A stretch of DNA of 39,400 nucleotides, from positions 1-39,400 of the forward strand of contig JAOUKV010000026.1 of assembly GCA_029882355.1 (NCBI GenBank). Direction: 5' to 3'. The notes beneath the pieces were generated by a model. That model had not been told where the DNA came from. It did no database searches and was given only the letters and a program-made list of their open reading frames with translations. Both the position numbers and the translations under genes were made by a program. The DNA is from Gammaproteobacteria bacterium. Its GTDB lineage: Bacteria; Pseudomonadota; Gammaproteobacteria; SZUA-229. Shown one piece after another: positions 7,613-22,481 of this stretch; within the stretch, counting starts at the first letter, position 1; each line of letters starts with the position of its first letter.

Positions 7613-7629
7613 TTGGCACGACAATTGCA
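7613..7629 (+). promoter_or_regulatory. Sigma-54 promoter of the pilin gene
   Basis: TTGGCACGACAATTGCA matches the RpoN consensus TTGGCACG-N4-TTGCA without a mismatch, with GG and GC at the required spacing. The expected start of transcription is near 7640, giving a leader of about 40 bases before ATG 7681. RpoN control of the major pilin is known from PilS/PilR systems. Confidence 0.85.
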
Positions 7630-7680: not shown

Positions 7681-8403
7681 ATGAGTATGCACCAACAGAT
7701 GAGAAAGCAGTTAAACAGCCAGAAAGGTTTTACCTTGATAGAAATTGCTATTGTGTTGGTGATTATCGGTCTGTTGCTGGGTGGTGTTCTGAAAGGGCAG
7801 GAATTGATCAACACTGCACGTGTACGTTCTTTGAATAATAGTGTCGATGGTATTACGGCTGCCTGGTTTAGTTTTCAGGATCGTTATAGGGCTTTTCCTG
7901 GTGATTATCTAAATGCAAGATCGACGGTGAATTTGCCAGGAGCGCCTGCTGGTGGTGATGGTAATGGACGAGTAGGAGATGTTGCGGGAGCAGATAATCC
8001 AGCCGAAAGAGGGCTTGTATGGGTTCATCTGGAGGCAGCGGGATATATTACTGGCGGATATGATGGTGTAGCAATTGCGGCAGGTAATGAATATGTCTGT
8101 ACTGTTACAACATGTCCAGATAATGGCTTTGGTACCGGGATGAGTATTTTCCACGGCGCAGAAGGACAGGTTGCTGGAGCAGCGAATGCTCATGAGCTAA
8201 TCACAGGTCAAGGTATCCCTGTTGATGTGCTTGCTGAACTGGATAGAAAGATTGATGATGGCGCAGCAACTACAGGTTTGATGCAGATAGGTAATGGTGC
8301 TGCGATCTGGGATGCTGCGGCATCAGCTGCATGTATTAATGTTACGGCTTATCAATTACAAGTACCCAGTGACAATTGTGCGGCAGTGTTCAGAAACTTC
8401 TAA
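7681..8403 (+). CDS. Type IV pilin-like protein under sigma-54 control
   Basis: A 240-residue prepilin. Leader MSMHQQMRKQLNSQKG (or a shorter one from Met7), then FTLIEIAIVLVIIGLLLGG with Glu5 of the mature protein. After the N-terminal helix comes FQDRYRAFPGDY, a motif seen in many type IV pilins. The mature part is Gly/Ala-rich and acidic. Four Cys form two likely pairs: one near the middle (YVCTVTTC) and one closing the C-terminus (AACIN...DNCAAVF), the usual D-loop position. The dedicated promoter, leader and terminator make it a monocistronic, highly expressed type of gene, so it is the best candidate for a main pilus subunit. It lies between the tether gene and the ABC ATPase gene. Confidence 0.85.
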   Translation: MSMHQQMRKQLNSQKGFTLIEIAIVLVIIGLLLGGVLKGQELINTARVRSLNNSVDGITAAWFSFQDRYRAFPGDYLNARSTVNLPGAPAGGDGNGRVGDVAGADNPAERGLVWVHLEAAGYITGGYDGVAIAAGNEYVCTVTTCPDNGFGTGMSIFHGAEGQVAGAANAHELITGQGIPVDVLAELDRKIDDGAATTGLMQIGNGAAIWDAAASAACINVTAYQLQVPSDNCAAVFRNF

Positions 8404-8488: not shown

Positions 8489-9214
8489 ATGAACATGATC
8501 GAATGTAAAAATCTGTGTAAGTCGTACGCATCAAAAAAAGTGCTCGATGGCATCAACCTGTCAATAAATCAGGGGGAGTTTTTTGGACTTGTGGGCATGA
8601 ATGGCAGTGGCAAGTCCACCATGATTAAAGCTATGCTGGATCTTGTTGCTATTGATGGCGGTGAGATTGAAATATTTGGTGAAACGCATCGACAGGTTTC
8701 TTCAAGGAAAAATTTAGCGTATTTACCAGACCGATTCTCACCACCTCCACATCTTAAGGGAAAAGATTTTATATGTTATATGCTTGAACTACAGGGTGTG
8801 CAGTGTGATGAAACTGCGATCAATAATATGCTTGAGGTTCTGGAACTGGACAAAATAGCGATGCAGTCATCTGTCAGTAATCTATCTAAAGGTATGACAC
8901 AAAAACTGGGTCTAGCGGCATGTTTATTGAGTGATAAAAAGTTGCTTATGCTTGATGAGCCAATGAGTGGCCTGGATCCAAAAGCCAGAGTGTTGTTTAA
9001 AAAAGAATTGCAGAATAAAAAACGGCAGGGAGCTTCGGTTTTTTTTAGTTCGCATGTGCTCGCCGATGTCGATGAACTTGCAGATCGAATAGCTGTTTTG
9101 CATAACGGCAAACTGATGTATGTTGGTAGCACAGAAGAGTTAAAAGAAAAATATAAAACAGATGAGCTTGAAGATGCATATATGCAATGTATCGATCAAG
9201 TAATACCAGCTTAA
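8489..9214 (+). CDS. ABC transporter ATP-binding protein (PilH-like by context)
   Basis: A 241-residue ATPase. Walker A GMNGSGKS at residues 36-43, a Q-loop-equivalent region near LAYLPDRF at about 77-83, a signature variant NLSKGMTQKLGLA at 131-143 (LSKGM rather than LSGGQ), Walker B KLLMLDEP at 151-158 with Asp156/Glu157, D-loop SGLDPKA and a switch His in SSHVLADVDELADR. The LSKGM signature is common in ATPases paired with ABC-2 permeases, which fits the permease at 6032. It lies behind its own spacer after the pilin terminator. No strong ribosome site precedes ATG 8489; ATG 8495 is an alternative. The stop shares TTAA with the convergent ntrC stop. Confidence 0.85.
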   Translation: MNMIECKNLCKSYASKKVLDGINLSINQGEFFGLVGMNGSGKSTMIKAMLDLVAIDGGEIEIFGETHRQVSSRKNLAYLPDRFSPPPHLKGKDFICYMLELQGVQCDETAINNMLEVLELDKIAMQSSVSNLSKGMTQKLGLAACLLSDKKLLMLDEPMSGLDPKARVLFKKELQNKKRQGASVFFSSHVLADVDELADRIAVLHNGKLMYVGSTEELKEKYKTDELEDAYMQCIDQVIPA

Positions 9215-10605
9215 ATATTTAATTCCTTAATTTTTCGCGTCAGAGTATTTCTACCCCAGCCTAATAATATTGCTGCTTCCTGTTTTTTTCCGCGTGTTTG
9301 TTTTAGTGCAGCTTCAATCAATAGTCGTTCGACAGCAGGAATAATTTCATTAGCTATTTTTTCTTTGCCTGAGTTCATAGCATTTTCTGCATAGGATGAA
9401 ATACTTTGTTGCCAGCTGCTACTGGACGAAGATGTAGTTTGTTTATCAGCATGTAAGTCATCGGGTAAATCTGAAAGATGAATTATTTTGCCTGATGTCA
9501 TTACCGCTAACCAGTGACAGGTGTTTTCCAGCTGGCGTACGTTACCCGTCCACTCAAGTGTGGATAAATAGTCTTCGACTTCAGGTAACAGTTGTTTAGA
9601 TTCAATACCCAGATCTTTGGTAGCTCTGTGCAAAAAAAGATTGAGCAAAGCAGGAATATCTTCACGTCTTTCCCGCAGTGCGGGTAAATGAATGCGTATA
9701 ACATTGAGTCGATGATAAAGGTCTTCACGGAATAGGCCTTCTTTAACACGCTGCTCAAGATTTTGATGTGTGGCAGCGATAATACGTACATCAACTTTAA
9801 TTGGTGTGTGGCCACCGACCCGATAAAATATGCCATCGGCGAGTACGCGTAATAAACGCGTCTGTAACTCGGAAGGCATATCGCCAATTTCATCAAGAAA
9901 TAAAGTGCCACCATCAGCCTGTTCAAAACGGCCCTTGCGTTGTGCCTGTGCGCCGGTAAAAGCGCCGCGTTCATGGCCAAACAATTCTGATTCAAGCAGG
10001 TCTTTGGGAATAGCTGCGGTATTTAGAGCAATAAATTCGCGTTCAGAGCGGGGGCTGTGCTTGTGCAGGGAAAGTGCAACCAGTTCTTTACCGGTGCCAG
10101 ACTCGCCAGTAATTAATACATTAACGTTAGATTTTGAAAGTCGACCAATTGCACGAAATACTTCCTGCATAGCTGGTGCTTCACCAATAATTTCTGGAAG
10201 CGGTTGTGTTGCCAGTATTTCACTGTGTGATTCATGTCGTCGAGCACAGGCACGTTGTGCTAGTGAAATAGCATCATCGATATCAAAAGGCTTGGGCAGG
10301 TACTCAAATGCACCACCTTTAAAAGCTGAAACTGCACTGTCCAGATCAGAGTGTGCAGTCATAATAATGACAGGAATTTCAGGGTAAGATTCTGACAACG
10401 CTGAAAGTAATGTTAATCCATCCATACCCGGCATGCGCACATCAGTAATGATAGTGTCTGGTTCTGATTGTTTGAGTCGATCAAGAATTCCGTCAGCTTT
10501 ATTAAAACTGGTGACCTCCATGCCTGCTTGTTCGAGCGCCTTTTGCAATACCCATCGAATCGAGTCATCGTCATCAATAATCCATATCTGTTGTGCATTG
10601 GTCAT
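9211..10605 (-). CDS. ntrC: Nitrogen regulation response regulator NtrC
   Basis: A 464-residue sigma-54 activator with the full NtrC plan. The receiver domain has the acidic patch DDDD at 11-14 and phospho-acceptor Asp55 (TDVRMPG). The AAA+ domain has Walker A GESGTGKE at 167-174, GAFTGA at 214-219 for sigma-54 contact, and Walker B LFLDEIGDM. The C-terminal Fis-type helix-turn-helix ends in GWGRNTLTRKIKEL. NtrC, when phosphorylated by NtrB under nitrogen limitation, activates glnA and related promoters. The gene follows ntrB after only five bases, so they form an operon. Matching DNA sites are present at 11843-11857 and 19953-19992. Confidence 0.95.
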   Translation of the reverse strand: MTNAQQIWIIDDDDSIRWVLQKALEQAGMEVTSFNKADGILDRLKQSEPDTIITDVRMPGMDGLTLLSALSESYPEIPVIIMTAHSDLDSAVSAFKGGAFEYLPKPFDIDDAISLAQRACARRHESHSEILATQPLPEIIGEAPAMQEVFRAIGRLSKSNVNVLITGESGTGKELVALSLHKHSPRSEREFIALNTAAIPKDLLESELFGHERGAFTGAQAQRKGRFEQADGGTLFLDEIGDMPSELQTRLLRVLADGIFYRVGGHTPIKVDVRIIAATHQNLEQRVKEGLFREDLYHRLNVIRIHLPALRERREDIPALLNLFLHRATKDLGIESKQLLPEVEDYLSTLEWTGNVRQLENTCHWLAVMTSGKIIHLSDLPDDLHADKQTTSSSSSSWQQSISSYAENAMNSGKEKIANEIIPAVERLLIEAALKQTRGKKQEAAILLGWGRNTLTRKIKELNI

Positions 10606-10610
10606 AGTGC

Positions 10611-11678
10611 TTACTCGGTGCTGGTGTGGAGTGGTAATAATAAAGTGAAAACGGTGTGTCCTGGTGTACTGGTAAATTCAATCAGGCCGTTATGTTGATT
10701 GATCAATGTTTGAGCAATGGACAGGCCAAGACCAGTACCTTCTGCATGGCCGGTGACCATAGGCAGAAAAAGACTTTCCTTGAGATCGTCAGGAATGCCT
10801 GGGCCGTCATCGATGATGTCGATTTTTGCAATTAGAGGATAAGAGTTGTCACCAATGGTGTAATTTCTCAAAGGACGGGTTCGAAAAGTGATCTCACCAT
10901 CGTTTGATACCTCTTTGATGGCATTACGCGTAATGTTAAGAATGGCCTGAATAATCATCGACTCATCACCATAAATATCAGGCAGACTGGGATCGTAGTC
11001 TGCAGAAAATTTAATGGTGCTGGCTTCAACCTGCACCAGACTTCGAACGTGCTCCAATATTTGGTGAATATTGAGATCGCTTTTATTGGGTATGTCCCGT
11101 GGTCCCAGCATTCTGTCGACCAGCTTCTTCAAACGGTCGGCTTCACGAATGATAACGTGGGTGAATTCACGATCCTGATCATTACTGAACTTCCTTTCTA
11201 ATAACTGGGCAGCACCACGTATACCGCCTAAAGGATTTTTAATTTCGTGAGCGAGTCCTCTTAAAAGATTACGGCTGGCCTCGCTTTGATTGAGCAGGTG
11301 TTTTTCCTGCGCAAGTTTACGATGTCGGCCACGTCCGACGAATTCGAGTAACAGGAAATGTCCGCGTTTGTCGTATTCAATAGGCGATGCCATGTAGTCC
11401 ACGGGCAGTGATTGACCTGTTCGCACAGCAAGATCTTCTTCATAGGCAGAAAAAGGGTGCTGTGTTATTAATGCGCTGTTGATACGAGAAAAAAATTCGG
11501 ATTCATCAATAATCAACTCATGTAAGGGGCGCAGTTTTGCGCGGGCACGACTTATCTGGAACATCATTTCTGCGGACGGATTCATATATTCGATACATAG
11601 TTGCTGATTGATAACAAGCACGGCGGAATGCAAGTTTTCGAGAATAGTCTGGACTGATTGTTGTGTAATTTGAGTCAT
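10611..11678 (-). CDS. ntrB: Nitrogen regulation sensor kinase NtrB
   Basis: A 355-residue soluble kinase. The N-terminal PAS domain covers about residues 10-115 and has no membrane span, as expected for NtrB. The H-box GLAHEIKNPLGGIRGAAQLL places phospho-acceptor His144. The C-terminal ATPase domain has an N-box (ITRNAIKEV), a G1 motif (IIDDGPGIPDD) and G2 (GHAEGTGLGLSIAQTL). NtrB phosphorylates or dephosphorylates NtrC according to PII (GlnB) state; no PII gene is in the window. A sigma-54-like promoter almost touches the start codon, and an NtrC-type dyad lies about 170 bases upstream, which suggests autoregulation. Confidence 0.95.
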   Translation of the reverse strand: MTQITQQSVQTILENLHSAVLVINQQLCIEYMNPSAEMMFQISRARAKLRPLHELIIDESEFFSRINSALITQHPFSAYEEDLAVRTGQSLPVDYMASPIEYDKRGHFLLLEFVGRGRHRKLAQEKHLLNQSEASRNLLRGLAHEIKNPLGGIRGAAQLLERKFSNDQDREFTHVIIREADRLKKLVDRMLGPRDIPNKSDLNIHQILEHVRSLVQVEASTIKFSADYDPSLPDIYGDESMIIQAILNITRNAIKEVSNDGEITFRTRPLRNYTIGDNSYPLIAKIDIIDDGPGIPDDLKESLFLPMVTGHAEGTGLGLSIAQTLINQHNGLIEFTSTPGHTVFTLLLPLHTSTE

Positions 11679-11691
11679 TGTCTATAGGTTA

Positions 11692-11708
11692 AGCAAGTAT
11701 TGAACCAA
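11692..11708 (-). promoter_or_regulatory. Candidate sigma-54 promoter of ntrBC
   Basis: Read on the minus strand, TTGGTTCAATACTTGCT keeps the TTGG and TTGC blocks at the exact RpoN spacing. The predicted transcription start, near 11681, would leave only about three leader bases before the ntrB ATG, so either the transcript is nearly leaderless or the match is fortuitous. Confidence 0.45.
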
Positions 11709-11842: not shown

Positions 11843-11857
11843 GCACCGACATGGTGC
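11843..11857. promoter_or_regulatory. NtrC-binding-type dyad upstream of ntrBC
   Basis: GCACCGACATGGTGC has perfect 5-base arms around a 5-base spacer and matches the NtrC consensus GCACY-N5-RGTGC. It is centred about 170 bases upstream of the ntrB start, in the gap between the DUF4124 gene and ntrB. The rest of that gap (11679-11906) shows no gene. Confidence 0.65.
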
Positions 11858-12511: not shown

Positions 12512-13921
12512 TTAAACGCTGTAGTACATATCAAACTCACAAGGATGAACCGCACAACGGTAGCGCTGTACTTCCTCATTTTTAAGCGCGATAAATGCAT
12601 CGATAACATCATTATCGAATACACCACCAGCAGTTAAGAATTCACGGTCTTCATCTAGAGCTTTTAATGCTTCGTCAAAAGAGAAGGCAACCTGTGGGAT
12701 TTTTGCTTCTTCTTCAGGAGGAAGGTCGTACAGGTCTTTATCTCCAGCATCACCAGGGTGCATTTTCTTCTGGATGCCGTCGAGGCCTGCCATCAGAATT
12801 GCAGAAAAACACAAATAAGGGTTAGCAGTTGAGTCGGGGAAGCGAACTTCAACACGACGACCTTTAGGGCTGCTAACGTGAGGAATGCGAATAGACGCAG
12901 AGCGATTACGTGCTGAATAAGCCAGCATAACCGGTGCTTCAAAACCGGGAACCAGACGTTTGTAGCTGTTGGTTGATGCATTAGAAAAAGCGTTAATCGC
13001 TTTAGCGTGTTTGATTATGCCGCCGATGAAGAATAAAGCCGTTTCTGACAGGCCGCCGTACAGGTCGCCGGCAAAAATATTTTCACCATTTTTAGCAATA
13101 GAGGCATGAACGTGCATACCATTACCGTTGTCGCCTACCATTGGTTTGGGCATGAAGGTCGCGGTCTTGCCATAGGCGTGTGCCACGTTGTGTACCACGT
13201 ATTTGAAAATCTGGACTTCGTCAGCTTTCTTAACCAACGTGTTAAATACCGTGCCTATTTCACACTGACCCGCCGTGCCCACTTCGTGGTGATGAACTTC
13301 AGTGGGGCAACCCATTTCTTCGGCCGTCAGACACATGGTTGAGCGCAGGTCCTGCAATGAATCGATAGGAGGAACCGGGAAGTAACCGCCTTTGACGCCA
13401 GGGCGGTGTCCCATGTTGTTACCGTCGTATTCAGCGCCCGTGTTCCAGGCTGCTTCTTCAGAGCCGATCTTGTAAGAAACGCCGCCCATTTCATCTGTCC
13501 ACTGCACGCTGTCGAAGACGAAAAATTCATTTTCAGGACCAAAGTAAGCGGTGTCGCCGATACCAGTTGAGTTCAAATAAGCTTCAGCACGTTTAGCGAT
13601 AGAACGTGGGTCACGGTTGTAGCCTTGCATATCAGAAGGTTCGATAATGTCACAACGCAGGTTCATGGTCACTTCTTCGGTGAATGGGTCGATGACCTGT
13701 GTGTCGCAATCTGGCATCAAAATCATGTCCGATTCGTTAATGCCTTTCCAGCCAGCGATAGATGAACCGTCGAACATTTTACCTTCGAGTAGAACGTCTT
13801 CGTCGATGGTATGTGATGGTACAGAAACGTGTTGTTCTTTGCCCTGTGTATCAGTGAAGCGGAAATCAACGAATTTAACATCGTATTTCTCAATCATATT
13901 TAAAACGTCAGATGCAGACAT
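12512..13921 (-). CDS. glnA: Type I glutamine synthetase
   Basis: A 469-residue GS-I of the usual proteobacterial length. It makes glutamine from glutamate, ammonia and ATP in the cytoplasm. Visible signatures: the N-terminal [17 protein letters not shown], the catalytic block [10 protein letters not shown] at 128-137, the ATP-binding region [14 protein letters not shown] at 259-272, and the glutamate/arginine region NRSASIRIP at 339-347. Tyr398 in [10 protein letters not shown] is the adenylation site used by GlnE, so activity is probably controlled by covalent modification. The start ATG 13921 has AGGAGT shortly upstream. A sigma-54-like promoter and a long leader hairpin precede it. A second, unrelated-class GS is at 20304-22481. 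Confidence 0.97.
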
Positions 13922-13982
13922 GGTTTTACTCCTGGAATATTGGATTTGTGTCCGCCAATGGAGCTGGCGGTGATAGAAAGAA

Positions 13983-14031
13983 GGAACCTCTGGTTAAACG
14001 AGTAATACTCACAGGTTTAATCAGAGATACC
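13983..14031 (-). promoter_or_regulatory. Long hairpin in the glnA leader
   Basis: Arms 13983-13999 and 14015-14031 form a 17-position stem in the minus-strand RNA, with 15 pairs (one G-U) and two mismatches. The loop contains a further small palindrome, GAGTAATACTC (14000-14010). A second hairpin, CCGCCA/TGGCGG, lies at 13952-13970, nearer the start codon. If transcription starts near 14040, the long stem begins about nine bases into the RNA. It does not show the conserved bases of the known glnA glutamine riboswitch. Its role is unknown. Confidence 0.5.
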
Positions 14032-14050
14032 TGGGTTCAGCCTGGTATTC

Positions 14051-14067
14051 TGCATGATATGCGCCAA
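14051..14067 (-). promoter_or_regulatory. Sigma-54-type promoter of glnA
   Basis: On the minus strand, TTGGCGCATATCATGCA keeps GG and GC at -24/-12 spacing and TTGGC/TGCA flanks. The expected start is near 14040, with a leader of about 120 bases. No perfect NtrC dyad was found in the bases just upstream. Confidence 0.65.
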
Positions 14068-14130
14068 AAATGGAAAGGGGTACGTCAGTGAATTTATGCT
14101 GCAATTACAACTATAAGGAGGTGTATTAAC

Positions 14131-19553: not shown

Positions 19554-19637
19554 TATAAAAGACAGCGAGAGTTGGGGGTATGTTTGATCAATTCATTGTA
19601 CCTTCTGGTTAATATCGTTTTTCCATAAAAACAAATT

Positions 19638-19913
19638 TTACGGCCTTGTGCGTTCGATCAGGCATTCATATGAACCGGTGGTAAATTCACGGCAGACCAG
19701 TGGGCGCTTCTGGTAAATCATACAATCCATGTTATTTCTATTAAGGGCAGCACACCAGCCATCATCCAGTCGCAGCATGGTTCTTCCGCCCCATTCATCG
19801 GTGGCGATAAAATGTTCAGGTACGCCCGTTTCAGTCAGTAAGAATACCTCAAGACGGCAGCAGCTCGCCTGGCAGGTTGAGCAGGTTACTTCGGTCAAAT
19901 CAGTTTGTGTCAT
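19638..19913 (-). CDS. YkgJ-family cysteine cluster protein
   Basis: A 91-residue soluble protein with eight Cys. The start has CSTCQASCCRLEVFL (four Cys), the middle has DGWCAALNRNNMDC and the end has RPLVCREFTTGSYEC. This is the YkgJ/CxxCxxxCC family, described as zinc- or iron-chelating, of uncertain function. It ends with a conserved RPLVCREF, where family members have RPxxCRxF. It is transcribed away from the type III glutamine synthetase; the 40-bp palindrome at 19953 lies 40 bases upstream of its start and could affect it too. Confidence 0.85.
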   Translation of the reverse strand: MTQTDLTEVTCSTCQASCCRLEVFLLTETGVPEHFIATDEWGGRTMLRLDDGWCAALNRNNMDCMIYQKRPLVCREFTTGSYECLIERTRP

Positions 19914-19952
19914 ACTGCACTCTTGTATAAGTCAAAAAACACACTTTTTTCC

Positions 19953-19992
19953 GCACTCAATTGGTGCGTGTGCGCACCAATTGAGTGCGGCG
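19953..19992. promoter_or_regulatory. Perfect 40-bp palindrome made of two NtrC enhancer sites
   Basis: The left arm, 19953-19970, is an exact 18-base reverse complement of the right arm, 19975-19992, around TGTG. Each arm contains a full NtrC-type dyad: GCACTCAATTGGTGC at 19955-19969 and GCACCAATTGAGTGC at 19976-19990, both matching GCACY-N5-RGTGC. Their centres are 21 bp apart, two helical turns, the spacing that lets two NtrC dimers cooperate. They lie about 157 and 178 bases upstream of the start expected from the sigma-54 promoter at 20113-20129. Confidence 0.85.
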
Positions 19993-20112
19993 TTTATAGG
20001 TGAAGCGTAACCAAAAAAATTAAAAAAGTGCGCTTTATGTCGAATAGCGGCCATTTGATGCTTTTTCTAATCAGTTTCAGCCTGGTTGTACAATATGAAA
20101 CCACAAAAAAAA

Positions 20113-20129
20113 CTGGTTCGATATTTGCA
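20113..20129 (+). promoter_or_regulatory. Sigma-54 promoter of the type III glutamine synthetase
   Basis: CTGGTTCGATATTTGCA matches RpoN promoters at TGG, CG and TTGCA with exact spacing. The expected start is near 20140, with a leader of about 160 bases. The rest of the gap 19914-20303 holds the NtrC palindrome and no gene. Confidence 0.7.
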
Positions 20130-20303
20130 TTGATCTGTTCTGACATATAATAACGCTATCATGAATCAACGTATTATTAGATATAACGTTTGAGAAACAA
20201 AGCTATTTTCCGGCAACGGCAGCTTATCATCGGTAGTTTTTTGTTAGACAAATAATACTGATAGTACATTTTAATTTAGTAATATAATTTTGAGGAAAAC
20301 GTA

Positions 20304-22481
20304 ATGAGTGGAAATGAATCTCGCGTGCAGGCAATTTATCAAATCACCAACCGCGAACCAACACCTGTAGAAACGCCTGAGCCACTTTCTAAGATCTGGG
20401 CATGCGACGTCTTCAACCTGGCAAAAATGGAAGAGTCGCTTTCCAAGAATGCCTTTAAGGCTATAAAAAATACAGTGCAGACAGGTGCGCAGTTGGATGC
20501 AGCTACTGCAGATATCGTTGCTGCGGCGATGAAGGAATGGGCTATTTCAAAAGGCGTTAAGTTCTTCTCACACATTTTCTACCCGATGACTAACATCACG
20601 GCTGAAAAGCATGATGGTTTTATGGTTACCAATTCTGATGGTGCTGCGATTACTGAATTCACCGGCAGTCTGCTGATTAAGGGCGAACCAGATGGCTCAT
20701 CATTCCCTAATGGCAGTATCCGTATGACTAATGCGGCGCGTGGTTACACTGCCTGGGATCCAACCAGCCCTGTTTACATCATGCACACTGATAACGGCTC
20801 AACATTGATGATCCCTTGTGTGTTTATGTCATGGACAGGCGAAGCGCTTGATAAAAAAATTCCACTATTACGTTCTAACGATGCCATGAACAAGGCAGGT
20901 CAGAGATTACTTTCTGTAATGGGCGAAACCGAAATTGCACCACTTAACTCAAGCTGTGGTGCTGAGCAGGAATATTTCCTGGTTGATTCTAACTTTGCCA
21001 ACAGTCGTCCAGACCTGTTATTGGCGGGACGTACCCTATTTGGTGCAGCACCTGCTAAAGGCCAGCAGTTTGATGACCATTACTTCGGCGCTATTCCGGC
21101 ACGTGTTCAGGTTTACATGCAGGATCTTGAAGATCAGTTGTACCGTCTAGGTATCCCTGCTAAAACACACCACAACGAAGTCGCACCAGGGCAGTTTGAA
21201 ATTGCACCTTACTTTGAGGCAGCCAATGTAGCAGCTGATCATCAACAAATGATGATGACTTTACTGAAATCTACAGCAAAGAAACATGGTTTCATCTGTC
21301 TGTTACATGAGAAACCATTTGCAGGTGTTAATGGCTCCGGCAAACACGTTAACTGGTCAGTCGGTAACTCAACACAGGGTAATTTGCTTGATCCAGGTAG
21401 CACACCGCATGACAATCTGAACTTCCTGTTATTCTGCGGTGCTGTTATTCGCGGCGTTCATTTGCACGGTCCTTTGTTGCGTGCTGTGATTGCATCTGCA
21501 TCAAATGACCACCGTCTGGGTGCTAACGAAGCGCCCCCAGCAATTCTTTCTGTTTATCTGGGCGATCAGCTGGAAAAAGTATTCCAGGATATCAAAGATG
21601 GCAAACTGGCTACCAGTAAAACTGGTGGTTTGATGAAATCTGGTCTTTCTCAGATTCTTCATTTTGAACGTGATCCTGGTGATCGTAACCGTACTTCACC
21701 CTTTGCCTTCACCGGTAATCGTTTTGAATTCCGTGCGGTAGGTTCATCGCAGTCTGTATCAGGTCCATTAGTTGCGATGAATACCATGCTAGCTGATTCG
21801 CTTAACTGGATTGCTGACAAACTGGAAGCAAAATTGAAGAAAAAAGGCGCAGATCAGGCTGATGCCGTATTTGCGGTTTTGAAAGAGCTTATGGGTGAAC
21901 ATGGTAATGCAGTATTTGGTGGTGATGGTTATTCAGAAGAATGGCACAAAGCCGCCGTTGAAGAACGTGGCTTAAAGAACATACCAACAACTGCAGATGC
22001 GCTACCAGCATTACGCGAAAAATCAGTAAAAGAACTTTTCAAAAAAACCGGTGTATTAACCCCTGTTGAACTGGAAAGTCGCTATGAAGTTTATGCAGAG
22101 CAATACATTCTTTCTATCGAAGTTGAAGCCAAGCTGGTTGTTGATATGGCTAAAACAACGATATACCCTGCTGCTGTTCAATATCTGTTCGAGCTATCGA
22201 GCACAAGTTCAAGTCTGGTAGAAATGGGTATTGAATTTGACAATTCAGTAGCGAAAAATGTTGCGGCTGAAGCCAATGCAATGATGGCAGCGGTTGAAAA
22301 ATTAAGTGCAGCTATGGAGAAAGAAAATTTCTCAAATACAGAAAAGCATATGCAGCACTGCGCTTATGTGATTCGTGGCCTGATGGATGAAGTGCGTGTA
22401 CATGCTGACGTACTGGAGACAGAAGTCGCTGATGAGCTATGGCCACTACCTAAGTACCGTGAAATGCTGTTTATTAAATAA
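20304..22481 (+). CDS. glnN: Type III glutamine synthetase
   Basis: A 725-residue protein, the length of GS-III and far longer than GS-I. Class marks: KGVKFFSHIFYPMTN and an N-terminal extension, then FTGSLLIKGEPDGSSFPNG, EQEYFLVD for the metal site, HHNEVAPGQFEIAP, the ATP/glutamate block NGSGKHVNWSV, and RNRTSPFAFTGNRFEFRAVGSSQS. GS-III is best known from Bacteroidetes and cyanobacteria and forms double-ring dodecamers. It lacks the adenylation Tyr loop of GlnA, so transcription control matters more. The tandem NtrC sites and sigma-54 promoter upstream predict strong induction under nitrogen limitation. ATG 20304 follows GAGGAAAA at a good distance. A terminator follows. Confidence 0.95.
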   Translation: MSGNESRVQAIYQITNREPTPVETPEPLSKIWACDVFNLAKMEESLSKNAFKAIKNTVQTGAQLDAATADIVAAAMKEWAISKGVKFFSHIFYPMTNITAEKHDGFMVTNSDGAAITEFTGSLLIKGEPDGSSFPNGSIRMTNAARGYTAWDPTSPVYIMHTDNGSTLMIPCVFMSWTGEALDKKIPLLRSNDAMNKAGQRLLSVMGETEIAPLNSSCGAEQEYFLVDSNFANSRPDLLLAGRTLFGAAPAKGQQFDDHYFGAIPARVQVYMQDLEDQLYRLGIPAKTHHNEVAPGQFEIAPYFEAANVAADHQQMMMTLLKSTAKKHGFICLLHEKPFAGVNGSGKHVNWSVGNSTQGNLLDPGSTPHDNLNFLLFCGAVIRGVHLHGPLLRAVIASASNDHRLGANEAPPAILSVYLGDQLEKVFQDIKDGKLATSKTGGLMKSGLSQILHFERDPGDRNRTSPFAFTGNRFEFRAVGSSQSVSGPLVAMNTMLADSLNWIADKLEAKLKKKGADQADAVFAVLKELMGEHGNAVFGGDGYSEEWHKAAVEERGLKNIPTTADALPALREKSVKELFKKTGVLTPVELESRYEVYAEQYILSIEVEAKLVVDMAKTTIYPAAVQYLFELSSTSSSLVEMGIEFDNSVAKNVAAEANAMMAAVEKLSAAMEKENFSNTEKHMQHCAYVIRGLMDEVRVHADVLETEVADELWPLPKYREMLFIK

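Follow-up and report, generated by a model that had tools for sequence, protein, structure and literature searches.

A composite inverted repeat formed by two predicted NtrC sites upstream of a gammaproteobacterial type III glutamine synthetase gene

Introduction

The window analysed here is the whole of a 39.4-kb contig (C31) from a 2.88 Mb gammaproteobacterial assembly estimated to be 98% complete. It contains a long inverted repeat between a type III glutamine synthetase (GS-III) gene and a divergent YkgJ-like gene, and each arm of the repeat carries an NtrC-type dyad (Table 1). This arrangement raises two questions: whether the repeat is an NtrC enhancer of the GS-III gene, and why its two sites should be mirror copies of each other. 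NtrC sites as such do not require mirror symmetry. The initial annotation of the locus had read the palindrome as two NtrC sites, a reading that is retained here, but it had not set the mirror symmetry apart from the sites themselves.

Table 1. Coordinates of the features discussed (strand "." where the feature is not oriented).
Feature	Position in window	Strand	Details
ntrC	9211-10605	-	TIGR01818, 720.7 bits
ntrB	10611-11678	-	NF008293, 342.5 bits
Third exact dyad of the window	11843-11857	.	upstream of ntrB
GS-I glnA	12512-13921	-	same contig as ntrC and ntrB
Divergent CxxCxxCC/YkgJ-like gene	19638-19913	-	91 aa; 35.6 bits
Composite inverted repeat	19951-19990	.	18-nt arms 19951-19968 and 19973-19990; loop TGTG 19969-19972
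Upstream NtrC-type dyad GCACTCAATTGGTGC	19953-19967	.	centre ~-180 from predicted start
Downstream NtrC-type dyad GCACCAATTGAGTGC	19974-19988	.	centre ~-159 from predicted start
Predicted sigma-54 -24/-12 element TGGTTCGATATTTGCA	20114-20129	+	predicted start near 20140
Type III glutamine synthetase (GS-III)	20304-22481	+	725 aa; Pfam GSIII_N PF12437, 224.7 bits

Materials and methods

Relatives of the GS-III protein were collected with a pattern-based search of one genome per species (84,980 species), and the best 80 of 329 matches were kept. The upstream survey covered 62 gammaproteobacterial GS-III upstream regions of at least 250 nt, the window and a few near-duplicates included.

The symmetry of dyad pairs was evaluated on pairs followed by a downstream sigma-54-like site and carrying at most two mismatches over both dyads, at spacings of 19-22 bp (short) or 28-34 bp (long; 82 pairs). 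Class-screen input to this test comprised fetched loci only, among the matches listed. Seven GS-I loci that were misoriented or too short (L131, L134, L209, L217, L233, L253 and L276), one short GS-III upstream region (L015), one duplicate GS-I upstream region and 18 non-gammaproteobacterial-type GS-III loci were left out. A first run, with the window removed, used 44 short pairs: the promoter sample supplied 17, and the class screens the other 27, of which many are probably chance matches. A clean run, again without the window, used 38 short pairs after removal of six pairs from loci that had been picked by eye, in part for their symmetric appearance; the figures relied on are those of the clean run. 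Locus L350 belongs to the eye-picked set and is counted only as a near-perfect example.

Results

Structure of the inverted repeat

The two arms of the repeat are 100% complementary (18/18 nt), and the TGTG loop between them lacks self-complementarity. The description of the element as a perfect 40-bp palindrome thus holds for its arms and slightly overstates the whole, in which 36 of 40 bases are paired and the four loop bases are not. No other perfect inverted repeat of the window with a loop of up to 10 nt is as long: the runner-up has 11-nt arms, and 11 nt was also the longest such repeat in 20 mononucleotide shuffles of the window. Folded as single-stranded DNA, positions 19951-19990 reach -24.9 kcal/mol (z -9).

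Both GCACTCAATTGGTGC and GCACCAATTGAGTGC are exact matches to GCACY-N5-RGTGC, and they lie 21 bp apart, as first reported. We take this pattern to be the NtrC site consensus, as did the initial annotation, an assumption with which the conservation in relatives agrees. The dyads stand 161 and 140 bp, respectively, upstream of the -24/-12 element. A repeat or mobile element was rejected as the source of the structure, neither dyad sequence recurring among the 11 dyad sites of the genome.

The predicted promoter and its neighbourhood

The -24/-12 element TGGTTCGATATTTGCA has two mismatches in 12 constrained positions, with GG and GC ten bases apart. The window contains 29 sigma-54-like sites with at most three mismatches on both strands, and TGGTTCGATATTTGCA taken alone is not significant; its weight as a promoter element derives from its conservation in relatives. 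A leader of about 160 bases separates the predicted start from the downstream gene, whose GSIII_N domain and length bear out its original designation as GS-III; the NCBIfam model TIGR03105, also named type III, scores 55.1 bits against it, below the cut-off of 469.6.

A sigma-70-like promoter (TTTGCA-16-TATAAT, 20124-20151, plus strand) overlaps TGGTTCGATATTTGCA, in a region where sigma-70-like boxes are no more frequent than in shuffles; in three of five genus members, the -12 is followed by TATAAT. The sole perfect sigma-54 consensus of the window, TGGCACGACAATTGCA, is located elsewhere (7614-7629, plus strand) and starts 67 bp upstream of a 240-aa pilin-like frame with an N_methyl domain (7681-8403).

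The repeat lies only 37 bp from the start codon of the YkgJ-like gene, and the same divergent gene is present in one other genus member (G002, locus L109), so control of this gene by the palindrome, alone or together with GS-III, has to be considered. We regard it as decidedly improbable: there is no sigma-54-like site 40-300 bp downstream on that strand, and no YkgJ-like motif was detected in the 727-900 bp preceding GS-III in the three remaining genus members, all of which retain the paired dyad positions.

Nitrogen-regulation genes and dyads across the genome

NtrC, NtrB, RpoN and P-II genes are all encoded in the genome. Exact GCACY-N5-RGTGC matches occur at 11 sites (10 loci) in the assembly, against seven for the reversed control pattern, so most dyad sites are expected by chance. 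At only three of the 10 loci does a sigma-54-like site (at most three mismatches) follow 40-300 bp downstream: GS-III, ntrB, where a sigma-54-like site starting at 11707 on the minus strand lies 150 bp downstream of the dyad, and torF-glnK (C4). All three adjoin nitrogen-assimilation genes, and the remaining seven loci have no sigma-54-like site in that interval. This confinement of the dyad and sigma-54 pairing to nitrogen loci is the strongest within-genome evidence that the sites are of NtrC type.

GS-III promoters in relatives

The nearest GS-III relatives (best 80 of 329) are from Gammaproteobacteria, with Methylophaga and others next. In the window's own family, a full-length GS-III match was obtained in nine of 54 genomes, some of them incomplete, and a partial one in a further genome. 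A dyad with at most one mismatch was present in 34 of the 62 gammaproteobacterial upstream regions (mean 2.1 in 60 shuffles) and a sigma-54 element in 47 (3.8 in shuffles). The two occurred in the correct order, with the dyad 70-260 bp before the predicted start, in 27 of 62, compared with 0.02 in shuffles (maximum one in 60). Conservation of the dyads in relatives, proposed at the outset as a check, is thereby borne out in the recurrence of the dyad-promoter layout. The combination was missing at these thresholds from the other 35 regions; among Methylophaga-labelled upstream regions, three of ten were without either a dyad or a sigma-54 element, and three other GS-III upstream regions had no dyad, no sigma-54 site and no combination of both (0/3).

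The GS-III promoters of five genus members can be aligned, and all keep two dyad positions 20-21 bp apart together with the -24/-12 element, whose GG and GC are retained in 5/5, while the sequence between dyads and element has diverged. Two exact dyads are found only in the window; in all four sisters one dyad is exact and the other has one to three mismatches, the three-mismatch case having been read by eye. When the upstream dyad is compared with the reverse complement of the downstream one, the window matches at 15/15 positions and the sisters at 9, 9, 11 and 9 of 15. The window's downstream dyad matches its equivalents in the sisters at 14, 12, 11 and 12 of 15 positions, and its upstream dyad at 8, 12, 7 and 7. 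Because of this closer match, the few sites available suggest that the downstream dyad is probably the older one and may have been copied onto the upstream position.

The GS-I glnA genes of the same organisms differ in their upstream regions (500 bp). In two genus members (G001 and G003), an exact dyad is accompanied by a weaker one and by a -24/-12 element. No dyad with at most two mismatches was found in the window genome or in G002, and only a two-mismatch remnant is left in G006. A -24/-12 element with at most four mismatches is absent from G002 and G006, and the window genome keeps a sigma-54-like -24/-12 site without a dyad (region 12512-14130, minus strand). An intact NtrC site is thus missing before GS-I in three of five genus members, while an exact dyad stands before GS-III in all five, which hints that nitrogen control may have passed to GS-III from GS-I in some genus members; this we consider no more than a reasonable guess.

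Recurrent mirror symmetry of short-spaced dyad pairs

Exact twin dyads separated by a gap of 4-8 bp occurred in eight of 370 sampled genomes of the class, the window's included, and two of the eight were perfect inverted repeats: the window and L160, which is located upstream of a GS-I glnA and has 18-nt arms and a 4-nt loop. The GS-III relatives contributed a third perfect repeat, in a Methylophaga GS-III promoter (L019; 23-nt arms, 1-nt loop), and the glnA sample, among the matches listed, a fourth, upstream of a GS-I glnA (L181; 19-nt arms, 1-nt loop). The class screens, among the matches listed, also yielded a near-perfect pair (14/15) at a GS-I glnA (L350). The four perfect cases, window included, thus comprise two glnA and two GS-III promoters, all with dyads 20-21 bp apart and with arm sequences that are unlike. 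A near-perfect composite dyad palindrome was also observed at L351 (G199:C5:200520); it was not counted as a further case, having neither a sigma-54 site nor an identified neighbour or target gene.

In the clean run of the pair test, three of the 38 short pairs were exact inverted copies, against a permuted mean of 0.11 (p 4e-5), and eight had at least four of five spacer bases matching in inverted sense, against 2.6 (p 0.001). Direct spacer similarity was not significant (5 vs 3.0 expected, p 0.16). The 82 long-spaced pairs included no exact inverted copy and a single pair at 14/15 (0.8 expected), and their inverted spacer similarity was not raised (5 vs 9.5 expected). The contrast between short and long pairs was modest (p 0.03 for exact copies, p 0.02 for spacer similarity). 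In the first run, three of 44 short pairs were exact copies (mean 0.09, p 6e-5), and the spacer similarity of 12/44 against 3.4 (p 6e-5) was inflated by the picked loci.

It could be argued that perfect symmetry is a coincidence among AT-rich sites, there being only four perfect cases with the window included, and the promoter sample on its own speaks in part for this: with the window and L160 removed, its 16 short pairs include two exact copies (0.13 expected, p 0.004), and their spacer similarity (5 vs 2.7) is not significant (p 0.09). The inverted excess in the clean run and the substitution pattern of two Methylophaga loci described below make coincidence improbable.

That the palindrome is instead a transcription terminator or a processed RNA hairpin appears extremely improbable. 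A repeat directly 3' of the stop codon of a co-directional upstream frame is indeed seen at two glnA loci (L181 and, by eye, L350); divergent frames flank it in the window and at L019 and L160. No terminator-like site was detected within 19600-20350, and on this and the divergent genes a terminator was rejected for the window. An RNA family was likewise rejected for the palindrome, no Rfam family matching anywhere in the window at gathering threshold.

Substitutions between two Methylophaga loci

The GS-III genes of L019 and L018, both Methylophaga, are identical at 94% of bases. Functional sites are expected to diverge less than their flanks, but here the sites diverge more: 19 of 47 columns differ in the palindrome of L019, compared with 79 of 844 elsewhere (p 6e-8). 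The substitution peak is centred on the palindrome, with the immediate flanks raised too, and the changes fall in both arms. The repeat pairs at 23/23 positions in L019 and at 11/23 in L018. Comparison of L019 with L018 and L021 gave a mixed picture with respect to one-way copying in Methylophaga, and no direction is claimed. The GS-III leader of L018 additionally carries a run of short ACTATT repeats that its sister L019 does not have.

Discussion

The palindrome is very probably a two-site NtrC enhancer of GS-III. The NtrC/sigma-54 control originally proposed for this gene is well supported, as a prediction, by the presence of Ntr and RpoN genes, by the restriction of the dyad-promoter pairing to nitrogen loci and by its recurrence in relatives. 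From these features we infer NtrC binding, looping and nitrogen induction: under nitrogen limitation, two NtrC-P dimers would bind side by side, at dyads that the 21-bp spacing places on one face of the helix, and would assemble into the active oligomer, which would contact sigma-54 RNA polymerase at TGGTTCGATATTTGCA through a DNA loop and switch GS-III on. On the promoter evidence from 27 of 62 GS-III loci, the Ntr regulon of Gammaproteobacteria would extend to a second glutamine synthetase.

The mirror symmetry would then serve no third function and would most likely be a trace of how the second strong site arose. Nearby dyads form a quasipalindrome, in which a template switch during replication could copy one site, inverted, over its weaker neighbour. 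Dyads with a gap of 5-6 bases would be natural quasipalindromes and those with a 15-base gap poorer ones, which would explain why exact symmetry was confined to short-spaced pairs and to the inverted sense. The window repeat, which is perfect, has a short loop and is imperfect in four relatives, fits the product of such an event. We give roughly even odds to the proposal that short-spaced NtrC pairs are homogenised by template switching, with a strong site overwriting its weak neighbour as an inverted copy in a single event. If true, a bacterial enhancer could gain a second strong site by a single mutation that leaves a perfect composite palindrome, and concerted evolution of short-spaced dyad-type operators would generally proceed through inverted rather than direct copies. 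The proposal would offer a mutational route, open to testing, for the gain or strengthening of sites in bacterial enhancers.

The main rival on origin is that the symmetry itself is selected, as a cruciform or hairpin or for symmetric packing of two NtrC dimers. The very stable single-strand fold and the recurrence of symmetry in other promoters despite unlike sequences are compatible with selection. It is nonetheless unlikely, considering that the four genus relatives retain paired sites without symmetry and that exact inverted copies are absent from the long-spaced pairs.

The nearest known system for the enhancer is E. coli glnAp2, in which two strong NtrC dyads likewise precede the sigma-54 promoter of a glutamine synthetase gene (PMC3870243). 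The two-turn spacing at our locus had been equated with the E. coli glnA layout, an equation that does not survive comparison with K-12, where the exact dyads are 32 bp apart, ~140 and ~108 bp ahead of the start that the -24/-12 site predicts, form no inverted repeat and serve a GS-I gene. The window pair, at 21 bp and ~-180/-159 with an exact inverted repeat and a GS-III gene, thus departs from the E. coli type of two strong sites three helical turns apart. Among 163 sampled GS-I glnA upstream regions, the commonest dyad spacings were 30 bp (42 pairs) and 31 bp (26 pairs); among GS-III dyad pairs spaced 15-60 bp, six of ten were at 20-21 bp.

Cyanobacterial glnN belongs to the same enzyme family (62-71% identity over the best segment, for the cyanobacterial-type proteins among the best 80 of 329). 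In Synechocystis, glnN is NtcA-controlled and induced by nitrogen starvation (PMC6316151). Unlike the window, all 15 cyanobacterial-type upstream regions (one labelled Gracilibacteria) were without an NtrC dyad, a sigma-54 site or the two combined. The NtcA box GTA-N8-TAC was found in three of these 15 and in none of 59 others (L012-L070, one labelled Ilumatobacter), too few boxes to argue a clean regulator swap. Among the matches listed from the open-licence literature, no paper dealt with GS-III of Proteobacteria as a target of NtrC or with NtrC site pairs that form a palindrome.

For the predicted mutational origin, the closest parallels are quasipalindromes in E. coli, described as mutation hotspots at which the polymerase copies the nascent strand and the repeat becomes more perfect (PMC7202029), and RNA hairpins, for which template switching has been proposed as a single-event source (PMC8794818). 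In these cases, as would apply here, one event perfects an imperfect inverted repeat. Our locus differs from them in that the evidence is an evolutionary pattern, and in that the copied units would be transcription-factor sites, so that each such event would change the strength of an enhancer.
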